In this document: piece after piece, positions 40,818-56,740 of the stretch
Layout of the letters: each line of letters opens with the position of its first letter
Numbering within the stretch: the first letter of the stretch is position 1
Translations under genes and position numbers: made by a program
NCBI RefSeq assembly: GCF_019679455.1
Contig: NZ_JAIEZQ010000003.1
Coordinates: 186,001 to 250,000 of the forward strand
Reading direction: 5' to 3'
DNA: 64,000 nt
Source: Nocardioides jiangsuensis
GTDB lineage: Bacteria; Actinomycetota; Actinomycetes; Propionibacteriales; Nocardioidaceae
The notes under the pieces: generated by a model
The model's input: only the letters and a program-made list of their open reading frames with translations
What the model was told of the DNA's origin: nothing
The model's database searches: none

Positions 40818-41184
40818 GGGGCTGATCGGTTTCGACTTGGGACGTTAGTTCCAGGGGAAGCGGGTCGAGGATCCAAGGTCATCTCGTTAACGATCCTTGG
40901 AAACCAATAACTGCCGACTCCAAGCGCAGTTCGTTCGCCCTCGCCGCCTGAGCGACTGGTGAACGGGTCAGACTGAGCGCCGCCTCCGGCTCAGATCCTG
41001 GCCTCATCTAGGAGGCTTGCTGGTGAGTCCTGGCCACAGGGACTCACCGGGACTTTTCTGTGGCTGAGTCTGTCGGCGACGTGTTCGTGCGAGCGCCGGG
41101 ACTGAGAAAACGACATCACGAACTGCACCCGGAGAAGCCCTGGATCGACGCCGAAGGACGCGGGTTCGATTCCCGCCAGCTCCA
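40818..41184 (+). ncRNA. ssrA: transfer-messenger RNA (tmRNA)
   Basis: The 5' end GGGGCUGAUCGGUUUCGAC and the 3' end GGUUCGAUUCCCGCCAGCUC with discriminator A form the tRNA-Ala-like domain (GGGGCU pairs with AGCUCC); CCA is not encoded. The tag reading frame begins at 40913 (GCC) and ends at TGA 40949-40951, encoding ADSKRSSFALAA, whose ALAA end is the protease recognition signal. The RNA rescues stalled ribosomes together with SmpB, encoded just upstream. Length 367 nt is normal for actinobacteria. Confidence 0.96.
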
Positions 41185-41229
41185 CGTCGGGGTGTTCGCA
41201 CACAAGTGAGCACCCGGTCCGCGAAAATG

Positions 41230-53387: not shown

Positions 53388-53784
53388 TGGGGCTGCCGGT
53401 CATGGGCACCCGTGCCCAGACCGTCTTGCCACCCGTGGGCTGCGGGGTGACGCCCCAGTCGGAGGTCAGCGTGTCCACCAGGTCCAGCCCGCGGCCGGAC
53501 AGGTCGGCGGGGCCGTGGTCGCGGCGGTCGGCCGTGTCCGAGGAGTCGTCGTACACCTCGACCAGCACGAAGTCGCCCACCCGGGAAAGCCGCACCCGGA
53601 AGGGGGAGCGGGCGTGCACCACGGCGTTGGTGACGAGCTCGCTGACCACGAGCGCGGAGCAGTCGACGAGATGAGCGAGGCCGGCGGCACGTAGCTGGTC
53701 GCAGACGAACTGCCGGGCGTCGCGGATGTGGCGCGGCTCGGCCGGCCACCGTGCCTCGAAGGACCATTCGACTGCTCCGGGCAT
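53377..53784 (-). CDS. anti-sigma-type ATP-binding protein (HATPase_c_2, RsbW/SpoIIAB-like)
   Basis: A 135-residue GHKL ATPase domain: N box CSALVVSELVTNAVVHA, G1 VEVYDDSS and G2 LSGRGLDLVDTL. In actinobacteria such stand-alone domains act as serine kinases or anti-sigma factors in partner-switch control. It is divergent from a GAF-ANTAR regulator (175 bp). Its target may be the SigB/SigF-type factor at 32562, though that is 20 kb away. Confidence 0.88.
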   Translation of the reverse strand: MPGAVEWSFEARWPAEPRHIRDARQFVCDQLRAAGLAHLVDCSALVVSELVTNAVVHARSPFRVRLSRVGDFVLVEVYDDSSDTADRRDHGPADLSGRGLDLVDTLTSDWGVTPQPTGGKTVWARVPMTGSPINF

Positions 53785-53959
53785 GCCCGCGTCTTCTCCC
53801 CGTCAACGAACCGCATGGAACCGGTCACTGCAAGGTCTGGGCAACGGCACGGCTTCTGCCTCCGACTCTACCCGGGCACCAAGGCGATTGTCCGCTTTGC
53901 GTCCGGGGCCTCCCGGCCGGTGCCCGCATCGACGCGGCACCGCTGGGTACACGCCGCGC

Positions 53960-54742
53960 ATGAGCGGTGCGCACAAGGGGGACACGGGCCCGGACGTCGG
54001 TCGCGACGCCCGGGTCGCGCAGCGTCTCGTCGCCCTCGCCGACACGCTGGTGGACGACTTCGACGTCGTGGACCTGATGGACCGGCTCGTCGGGACCTGC
54101 GTGGAGCTGCTCGGCACCGACACGGCCGGCCTGCTCCTCGCCGACCAGCGGGGGAAGCTGCAGCTGGTCGCGTCCTCGAGCGAGGAGACCCGCCGGCTCG
54201 AGCTCTTCCAGCTGCAGAGCGAGGAGGGTCCCTGCCTCGACTGCTTCCACACCGGCCTTCCGGTCCGGGAGCCCGACCTCGCGGCCGCCTCCACCCGGTG
54301 GCCCCGGTTCACCCAGGCCGCGGCCGCTTTCGGCTACGTCTCGGTCTACGCCGTGCCGCTGCGCCTGCGGGACCAGGCCGTGGGTGCACTCAACCTGTTC
54401 CGCTCGGGCCGGCCGGCCCTGAGTGCCGACGACCAGCGGGTCGCGCAGGCACTCGCGGACGTCGCCACGATCGGCCTGCTCCAGCAGCGCACCAGGCAGC
54501 GCGCGACCGCGCTCGCCGAGCAGCTGCAGGGTGCCCTCGACAGCCGGGTGGTCATCGAGCAGGCCAAGGGCGTGCTCGCCGAGCACGGCCGGGTCGACAT
54601 GAGCACGGCGTACGCCGCGCTGCGCCGGTTCTCGCGGAACCACAACCAGAAGATCGCGGAGGTCGCCGAGCGCGTCGTGGGCCGGACCACCTCCCTCGAC
54701 GCGGTCCTCGAGACGTCGCCGTCCGAGACCGGATCTGTGTGA
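53960..54742 (+). CDS. GAF-ANTAR transcription antitermination regulator
   Basis: A 260-residue protein. Residues about 15-165 are a GAF domain (LVGTCVELLGTDTAGLLLAD, EGPCLDCFHTGLPVREPDLA); the last 60 are an ANTAR domain (DSRVVIEQAKGVLAEHGRVD, AYAALRRFSRNHNQKIAEVA) that binds RNA hairpins and prevents termination. GAF-ANTAR proteins in actinobacteria respond to small molecules or stress. A GGGTAC sits just upstream of the ATG, with only a weak GCAT 15 bp further up. Confidence 0.92.
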   Translation: MSGAHKGDTGPDVGRDARVAQRLVALADTLVDDFDVVDLMDRLVGTCVELLGTDTAGLLLADQRGKLQLVASSSEETRRLELFQLQSEEGPCLDCFHTGLPVREPDLAAASTRWPRFTQAAAAFGYVSVYAVPLRLRDQAVGALNLFRSGRPALSADDQRVAQALADVATIGLLQQRTRQRATALAEQLQGALDSRVVIEQAKGVLAEHGRVDMSTAYAALRRFSRNHNQKIAEVAERVVGRTTSLDAVLETSPSETGSV

Positions 54743-54848
54743 TCTACACCTATCCAGAGGGTCCGGAAATCCACGATTTCAGCCGCTCGGTGTGACGTGG
54801 GCAACTTTCGGCGTGTTTACGGATTGGATTCCGTGGGGAGTCTGTGCC

Positions 54849-54854
54849 TACGCT
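54849..54854 (+). promoter_or_regulatory. putative -10 for the NlpC/P60 leader
   Basis: TACGCT, with TTGGAT about 19 bp upstream, would give a leader of about 270 nt carrying the c-di-AMP riboswitch. The 54743-54939 stretch otherwise has no gene; it has GGGGATTCACC followed by GGGGTGA, a weak resemblance to riboswitch parts. Confidence 0.4.
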
Positions 54855-54939
54855 CATCGTTCGCTGAGACGTCGCCCGGATGGTGCAGGGGATTCACCGG
54901 GGTGACGTCAGCGTGACAAGTTCATAGCCGGAGCGGGCT

Positions 54940-55113
54940 ACGCCGAGTCCTACCCGCCCAGCGCTCCGGCCCGCACTGTCATGTCGTCGACCACAGTCAT
55001 GGGTAGGAGTGGGGGAACCACATCGTCACGCGTCCTCGGACGCTCGGGGTGTAGTCACCTTCTGGTGGCGGGGCACCTTTCAGCCCTAACCCGACAGCTC
55101 ACCTCACAGGCGT
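54940..55113 (+). ncRNA. c-di-AMP riboswitch (ydaO/yuaA class)
   Basis: The 5' segment ACGCCGAGTCC (54940-54950) can pair through ACGCC with GGCGT at 55109-55113 as the closing P1. Conserved single-strand parts are present: GGGTAGGAGTGGGGGAACC (55001-55019), GGGGTGTAGTCACC, and the 3' block ACCCGACAGCTCACCTCACA (55089-55108). In actinobacteria this RNA class commonly precedes genes for cell-wall hydrolases, as here. The ribosome site GGGAAGGGA begins right after P1, so control of translation start is possible. Confidence 0.82.
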
Positions 55114-55129
55114 GGGAAGGGATTTCTTC

Positions 55130-55612
55130 ATGCCTGCGACTCCTCGCATGCGTAGTTTCGCTGCGCTTCCGCTCCTCCTCGTCATGTTCCTCGTGGCCAG
55201 CACGTTCGCCCTCGCCACCCCGGCCGAGGCGCGCACCGCCCGCCAGTCCCGGATCTACGACGGCTTCCGCATCGTCGCCAACCAGAAGGGTGACCCGTAC
55301 CAGTACGGCGCGGACGGCCCGGGCGCCTTCGACTGCTCCGGCCTCACCTACTACTCGTTCCGCAAGGCTGGCTTCAGCAACATCCCGCGTACGTCGGACG
55401 CCCAGGCCCGCTGGACCGACCGCATCAAGCGCAAGAACATGCGCAAGGGCGACCTGATGTTCTTCTACGACGGCGGCGGCGTCTACCACGTCGGCGTGTT
55501 CGCCGGCTGGAAGAACGGCGAGCGGAAGATCATCCACGCGCCGTACGGCGGCCAGAACGTCCACCGCTCGTCCGTGTGGACCAACAAGTGGTTCCCCGGC
55601 ACCCTTCGGTGA
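55130..55612 (+). CDS. secreted NlpC/P60 peptidoglycan hydrolase
   Basis: A 160-residue exported hydrolase. A Sec signal (FAALPLLLVMFLVASTFALA) ends near AEARTA; the NlpC/P60 domain has catalytic Cys69 in GAFDCSGLTYYSF, His120 in VYHVGVFAG and His136 in IHAPYGG. It cleaves stem peptides in the wall. ATG at 55130 was chosen because GGAAGGGA lies 8 bases upstream; an in-frame GTG at 55112 overlaps the riboswitch end. A strong hairpin follows. Confidence 0.92.
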   Translation: MPATPRMRSFAALPLLLVMFLVASTFALATPAEARTARQSRIYDGFRIVANQKGDPYQYGADGPGAFDCSGLTYYSFRKAGFSNIPRTSDAQARWTDRIKRKNMRKGDLMFFYDGGGVYHVGVFAGWKNGERKIIHAPYGGQNVHRSSVWTNKWFPGTLR

Positions 55613-55638
55613 CCCGCGGTCTCCACGACTGAGCAAAG

Positions 55639-55672
55639 GCAGGGTCGCTCCCCGATCGGGGCGCGACCCTGC
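55639..55672. terminator. strong hairpin after NlpC/P60 gene
   Basis: GCAGGGTCGC (55639-55648) pairs with GCGACCCTGC (55663-55672); an inner CCCC-GATC-GGGG extends it. No U tract. Confidence 0.75.
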
Positions 55673-55674
55673 GC

Positions 55675-55680
55675 CACACT
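55675..55680 (+). promoter_or_regulatory. -10-like hexamer of a probable leaderless DUF3048 transcript
   Basis: CACACT ends 7 bases before ATG at 55688; no ribosome site is visible. Confidence 0.3.
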
Positions 55681-55687
55681 TAGCCCC

Positions 55688-56740
55688 ATGGTTGGATTTC
55701 CCATGCGTACCTCGACGTCCCTTTCGTCCCGCCGCCCCGGCGCCCGCTCCGCGTTCTCCCTGACCAGCCTGGCGCTCGTCGGTTCGCTGGCCCTCGCCGG
55801 CTGCAGCGACAGCACGTCGCCCGAGTCCGCCGACAGCCCGGACAGCCAGAGCACGGCCGCGGGCTCGACCCTCTCCGGCCAGTGGCCGCTCACCGGCCTC
55901 CCGGCCGAGGGCGAGGCCCCGAAGCACCCGGTGATGGTCGTCAAGATCGACAACACCGGCAGCAGCAACCCCCAGGTCGGGCTCGGCGAGGCCGACCTGG
56001 TCGCCGAGGAGCTCGTGGAGGGCGGCTCGACCCGCCTCGCGGTCTTCTACCACTCCCAGGTCCCCGACAAGGTCGGCCCCGTGCGGTCGATGCGCGCCTC
56101 CGACCTCGGCATCATCGAGCCCGCCGAGGCGGTGCTCGTGGCCAGCGGCGGGGCCCCGCAGACGGTGAAACGGGTGAAGGACGCGGGCGTGAAGGCGATG
56201 ACCGAGGGCGCTCCGGGCTACTTCCGGGACAACAGCCGCTCGGCGCCGTACAACCTGTTCATGGACCTGCCGAAGCTCGCGGAGACCCTGAAGTCCGACG
56301 GCACCCCCGAGGGCTACTTCCCGTGGGGCACCGAGGAGGACTTCCCCAAGGGGCAGCCGGCGGGCAAGATCTCGGCGACGTTCTCCGGGGGCCACACCAC
56401 GAACTGGCAGTTCAAGAAGGGCCGCTACGTCAACCTCAACAGCGAGGCGCCCGCGAACGACCAGTTCGACCCGGCGACCGTGCTCGTGCTGCGGGTCAAG
56501 GTCGGCGACGCCGGTTACAAGGACCCCGCGGGCAACCCCGTCCCGGAGACGAAGTTCACCGGCAAGGGCGAGGCGATGGTCTTCCACGACGGCTCGATGG
56601 TCCGGGCGACCTGGTCCAAGAGCGGGCTGGACGCCCCCGTGAAGCTGCAGACCAAGGCCGGCGAGCTCACCCTCCCCGCGGGCAAGGTGTGGATGGAGCT
56701 GGTCCCCAGCAACGGCGGGGACGTCAGCTTCAGCAAGTGA
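55688..56740 (+). CDS. DUF3048 (YerB-like) lipoprotein
   Basis: A 350-residue lipoprotein: signal with lipobox LALAGC near residue 34-39, a Ser/Asp-rich linker, and the two-part DUF3048 domain (HPVMVVKIDNTGSSNPQVGL, VFYHSQVPDKVGPVRSMRAS at first; then FKKGRYVNLNSEAPANDQFD and AMVFHDGSMVRATWSKSG). Homologues such as YerB are widespread; no reaction is established. A second ATG at 55703 is possible. Confidence 0.9.
   Translation: MVGFPMRTSTSLSSRRPGARSAFSLTSLALVGSLALAGCSDSTSPESADSPDSQSTAAGSTLSGQWPLTGLPAEGEAPKHPVMVVKIDNTGSSNPQVGLGEADLVAEELVEGGSTRLAVFYHSQVPDKVGPVRSMRASDLGIIEPAEAVLVASGGAPQTVKRVKDAGVKAMTEGAPGYFRDNSRSAPYNLFMDLPKLAETLKSDGTPEGYFPWGTEEDFPKGQPAGKISATFSGGHTTNWQFKKGRYVNLNSEAPANDQFDPATVLVLRVKVGDAGYKDPAGNPVPETKFTGKGEAMVFHDGSMVRATWSKSGLDAPVKLQTKAGELTLPAGKVWMELVPSNGGDVSFSK

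Follow-up and report, generated by a model that had tools for sequence, protein, structure and literature searches.

The window analysed here, a stretch of DNA of 64,000 nucleotides, carries on its + strand a leader between the end of a GAF/ANTAR gene (54742) and the ATG (55130) of a gene encoding a secreted NlpC/P60 peptidase of 160 aa (55130-55612, + strand, taken from the ORF list; PF00877, 75.7 bits). An in-frame GTG at 55112, which overlaps the 3' strand of the P1 helix described below, is a less likely start than this ATG. The upstream gene (53726-54742) codes for a GAF + ANTAR protein, a possible RNA-binding antiterminator, the downstream gene (55688-56740) codes for a DUF3048 protein, and a tmRNA gene lies at 40818-41187 (RF00023, 163.3 bits). 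Using cmscan, we obtained a match to RF00379, the c-di-AMP (ydaO/yuaA) riboswitch family, at 54975-55127 (+), spanning the complete model (1-134) with 59.0 bits and E = 3.9e-11, well above the gathering score of 38 bits. The sequence-only reading of this DNA had called a c-di-AMP riboswitch upstream of an NlpC/P60 gene and proposed a search with this covariance model; the significant match bears the call out. The source genome has four RF00379 matches, and such matches were present in 181 of 198 same-family genomes and in 202 of 297 genomes of the class. The genome also encodes a diadenylate cyclase domain, which is no more than supportive of c-di-AMP binding.

The 5' end of the Rfam match is misplaced. 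Specifically, the alignment forces the 5' strands of P1 and P2 inside the P2 loop, at CGUCG near 54985, where pairs are broken. We rejected this position for the two strands because orthologues keep ACGCCGAGTCCTGCCC where a layout starting at 54940 puts it, and the 5' boundary at 54940 given by the sequence-only reading is better than that of Rfam, as its layout recurs in relatives. With the 5' end set at 54940, the P1 expected of an RF00379 member is present as five Watson-Crick pairs between ACGCC (54940-54944, +), whose position is kept in orthologues, and GGCGT (55109-55113, +), the very strands that had been proposed to close it. Directly 3' of the P1 5' strand, GAG separates it from the 5' strand of an extended P2, TCCTACCC (54948-54955, +), which forms eight pairs with GGGTAGGA (55001-55008, +). 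The same P1/GAG/P2 layout was found in relatives with a conserved ACGCCGAGTCCTGCCC...GGGCAGGAG, and the extended-P2 pattern occurred in 114 of 395 genomes of the class, while a reversed control pattern was almost absent. The P2 sequence itself (TCCTGCCC/GGGCAGGA) is strikingly conserved class-wide, beyond the needs of a plain helix. The RF00379 alignment further places the conserved core GTGGGGGAACC at 55009-55019 (+), with its GUGGGG paired to CCUCAC at 55102-55107, and a hairpin GGGC-ACCUUUCA-GCCC at 55071-55086 (+) with the loop CCUUUC at 55076-55081. When the leader was folded into a nested minimum-energy structure, the aptamer was not recovered (z = -0.47); the result is uninformative, and it is a point against the explanation that we prefer below.

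The Shine-Dalgarno sequence (SD), GGGAAGGG, occupies 55114-55121 (+), with 8 nt between its last G and the ATG, and forms a duplex of eight pairs (-9.9 kcal/mol) with the 3' end of 16S rRNA in the form typical of Actinobacteria. P1 ends at 55113 and GGGAAGGGA begins at 55114, in agreement with the earlier observation that the ribosome site adjoins P1. We detected no terminator-like site within 54700-55700. Additionally, the distance from the end of P1 to the start codon has a median of 16 nt in 60 same-family leaders and of 17 nt in 55 class leaders outside this family, and therefore leaves no room for a terminator, as had been claimed for this leader.

Comparison with relatives indicates that the SD doubles as the 3' strand of the pseudoknot between loop and tail known for this class, and that the loop CCUUUC serves as anti-SD. 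In the window, the loop can pair with GGAAGG at 55115-55120, within the SD, over six pairs with a predicted energy of -8.0 kcal/mol; this helix is short and one of its six pairs is G-U, which counts against our preferred explanation. In the crystallised ydaO RNA (4QLM; sequence in PMC5393176), the loop of the hairpin that precedes the 3' core contains CUCCUUCG, and CGAAGGAG follows closely on P1; we deduced their pairing from the sequence in that paper, which itself mentions a pseudoknot. Changes in loop and SD go together in relatives (CCTTCTC/GAGAAGG, CTTTCC/GGAAAG, TCCTTCTCGC/GCGAGAGGGA and ACCTCC/GGAGGT). Across 72 same-family leaders, the pairing score of loops with their own SDs was 15.86, compared with 14.35±0.27 (maximum 15.44) after permutation of partners, and across 58 class leaders outside this family it was 14.78, compared with 12.84±0.31 (maximum 14.03). 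The own-partner score thus exceeded all 5000 permutations in both sets, which retain a few loci misparsed by the script (e.g., L254). Part of the match is constant sequence because SD sequences vary little. The loop-to-3'-tail pseudoknot that characterises RF00379 is hence represented here by six pairs, by covariation in relatives and by the comparison with the 4QLM sequence.

We consider it probable that the leader is a c-di-AMP riboswitch that turns translation of the secreted NlpC/P60 peptidoglycan hydrolase OFF. At the level of sequence, the components of this explanation are in place, namely the aptamer, P1 abutting the SD, the lack of a terminator-like site, the covarying loop-SD pseudoknot and a second covarying helix (helix X, below), and translational control of the gene is likely. 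Binding of c-di-AMP would stabilise the core and P1; in the ligand-bound RNA, CCUUUC would dock on GGAAGG and withdraw the SD from the 30S subunit, while without ligand the docking would be weak and the gene would be translated. Given the covariation of loop and SD and the short distance from P1 to the start, the simplest mechanism is docking of the loop on the SD, stabilised by the ligand; that this docking depends on ligand is something we infer. The sequence-only reading suggested that P1, once stabilised by ligand, could act on translation start; translation is the best supported mode, but it is unlikely that P1 acts alone. A steric block of the ribosome by P1 beside the SD, with no loop-SD pseudoknot involved, would draw on the direct adjacency of P1 and SD and on the ability of compact aptamers to block at a distance (review PMC10907184). 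We nevertheless regard it as very unlikely, as the SD-complementary loop covaries with the SD in two sets of relatives and the sequence of a crystallised class member holds the same pairing.

A switch acting on transcription, in which the ligand-bound RNA would lead to termination or Rho-linked attenuation with no canonical terminator, is also unlikely, if less so. It finds a parallel in Streptomyces coelicolor rpfA, where, as cited in PMC9960051, more transcript was seen without the riboswitch and terminated products were seen in vitro. The lack of terminator-like sites and the 16-17 nt between P1 and the start codon described above argue against it, as does the finding, in PMC9960051 as well, that the reporter transcript of Corynebacterium glutamicum nlpC was unchanged by c-di-AMP.

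A translational mode is not new for Actinobacteria, having been proposed already and partly tested elsewhere. The sequence-only reading called this mode less discussed for the class; proposals for Actinobacteria date from 2009-2010 and 2023. Reich et al. (2023, PMC9960051) report that c-di-AMP, acting through the C. glutamicum nlpC (cg2402) switch, lowers the reporter protein of the first gene but neither the transcript nor the output of the second gene; they conclude that the switch most likely acts on translation and suggest a CTCC:GGAG pseudoknot with the ribosome-binding site (RBS). The C. glutamicum leader resembles the present one in its NlpC/P60 target, its lack of a canonical terminator and its inferred translational OFF behaviour, whereas CTCC:GGAG is a hypothesis from one sequence and the loop-SD pairing reported here is backed by covariation in many leaders. 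Capture of the SD by the class pseudoknot would account for the terminator-free translational behaviour in C. glutamicum. For Streptomyces ydaO leaders, blocking of the RBS was proposed in work of 2009-2010, as cited in PMC8079986 (S. lividans); the leaders of S. coelicolor rpfA and others share cell-wall hydrolase targets and RBS blocking with the present one, but the element proposed there is a stem-loop, whereas here it is the class pseudoknot.

Among RF00379 leaders more broadly, the present one shares the core, P1, the hairpin and the loop-to-tail pseudoknot with crystallised ydaO/yuaA members, and differs from them in its extended P2, in the SD serving as the 3' strand of the pseudoknot and in the absence of a terminator after it. 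In the review PMC10907184, ydaO is already classed among the interdomain-docking riboswitches, and in the direct-occlusion and interdomain-docking riboswitches that it covers (SAM-II, preQ1-II, preQ1-III and cobalamin) the SD is likewise taken into a ligand-stabilised pseudoknot or loop docking, although aptamer and ligand differ from those of the present leader. A specific mechanism, in which the pseudoknot of the class itself carries the SD, would supersede the vaguer idea of P1 acting near the SD, with support across a whole bacterial class.

The sequence-only reading overlooked both this pseudoknot and a further helix, which we call helix X. In the window, its 5' strand GCCGGAGCG (54927-54935, +) forms nine consecutive Watson-Crick pairs with CGCTCCGGC (54962-54970, +), close to where the P2 loop begins; an alternative inner extension would pair GGGC at 54935-54938 with GCCC at 54956-54959. 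One segment closely precedes P1 and the other closely follows the P2 5' strand, so that helix X flanks the 5' strands of P1 and P2 and has no bases in common with either. The case for it rests on relatives, since the window alone gives a shuffle p of about 0.009. Helix X was found in nearly every extended-P2 leader examined (137 leaders, from many actinobacterial families), with covarying pairs such as CACGAGCGTTG/CAATGCTCGTG, CGAGTGGTCG/CGACCACTCG and GCACTCCGGGAC/GTCCCGGAGTGT. Because a three-sequence MAFFT alignment misaligned the P2 loop, covariation was scored by script with permutations. Own-partner pairing was 24.9 in 72 same-family leaders (permuted, 17.2±0.41) and 26.1 in 70 class leaders outside this family (permuted, 19.1±0.44). 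These permutations preserve base composition and not phylogeny, for which reason 84 representatives with less than 60% identity were tested separately; they gave 24.57 compared with 16.54±0.37 (z = 21.8), and for 60 of the 84 the own partner ranked among the best tenth. The signal disappeared when either segment was shifted, and mutual information, to which no pairing rule was applied, showed a stripe at the register expected for helix X. A GC-rich artefact was ruled out, as shuffled, permuted and moved-window controls do not reproduce the signal. A simple sigma-70 scan found no promoter-like site at the leader, so the presence of helix X within the transcript is an assumption. In several relatives, a conserved RYAACT-like motif precedes P1 by 23-28 nt and TANNNT precedes it by about 40 nt, and the window has a variant (ACAAGTTCATAG) at 54913-54926; the motifs in relatives suggest that the RNA may start shortly before helix X.

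The strands follow one another in the order X 5', P1 5', P2 5', X 3', P2 3' and P1 3', and helix X therefore crosses both P1 and P2. Of the 137 leaders, 83 have no nucleotide between P2 and X and 129 have no more than 2, 131 have no more than 3 nt between X and P1, and 134 have 9 nt or more in the remainder of the P2 loop; P2 itself has 7-9 pairs. Crossing helices, a short middle linker and a long third loop, as in an H-type pseudoknot, are thus all seen in the 137 leaders, and the predicted proportions of X and P2 fit such a pseudoknot, whose first loop would consist of the P1 5' strand and GAG. An early idea of ours that helix X must exclude P1 and P2 was weakened by these linker statistics.

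We favour coexistence of helix X with P1 and P2, as judged from these proportions, over a competing hairpin. Specifically, we lean cautiously towards the view that extended-P2 actinobacterial c-di-AMP riboswitches carry an undescribed second pseudoknot, in which X would stack on P2 and thread the P1 5' strand as first loop, making it a topological gate on P1 that controls docking on the SD. Helix X would form early and, once P2 has formed, the resulting X/P2 pseudoknot would pre-organise or gate P1. It is less likely, though the strongest of the alternatives considered, that helix X is a competitor: a 5' hairpin forming first would trap the 5' strands of P1 and P2 in its loop and hold the aptamer open, with the gene ON, until c-di-AMP causes P1 and P2 to form, a scheme whose output would still be translation and which differs solely in the role of X. 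Helix X would be transcribed first, it crosses both P1 and P2, and its strength in the window (-17.4 kcal/mol) exceeds that of P2 (-10.8), all of which suits a competitor. However, the usual switch competitors share bases and X shares none with P1 or P2, the linkers are tight (mostly 0 nt between P2 and X), and the remainder of the loop is sufficient to span X, which is what a coexisting H-type pseudoknot would show.

Helix X is the new element here and apparently undescribed. It is additional to the Rfam RF00379 model, in which this conserved second element has no place and which misaligns around it; CaCoFold lists RF00379 only as 'helix extended' and not as 'new pseudoknot'. Helix X was not found in the available part of the PMC9960051 account of the C. 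glutamicum nlpC switch, and the papers accessible to us contained no description of it. If real in three dimensions, helix X would alter the formation of P1, the regulatory helix, and constructs of actinobacterial c-di-AMP switches for binding or structural work should therefore include it.

The same genome holds a second NlpC/P60 gene, 61% identical to the first, with its own RF00379 leader (L003, G000:C1:188928-189116), which has the same extended-P2 layout together with helix X and the SD pseudoknot. We also noticed c-di-AMP leaders with a short P2 belonging to a longer NlpC protein (L001, G000:C1:640474-640625, as well as L006 and L008). In these, P1 is immediately preceded by a different hairpin, which apparently covaries (GACGCCTG/CAGGCGTC, GGCACCTG/CAGGTGCC and GGTGCCTG/CAGGCGCC).
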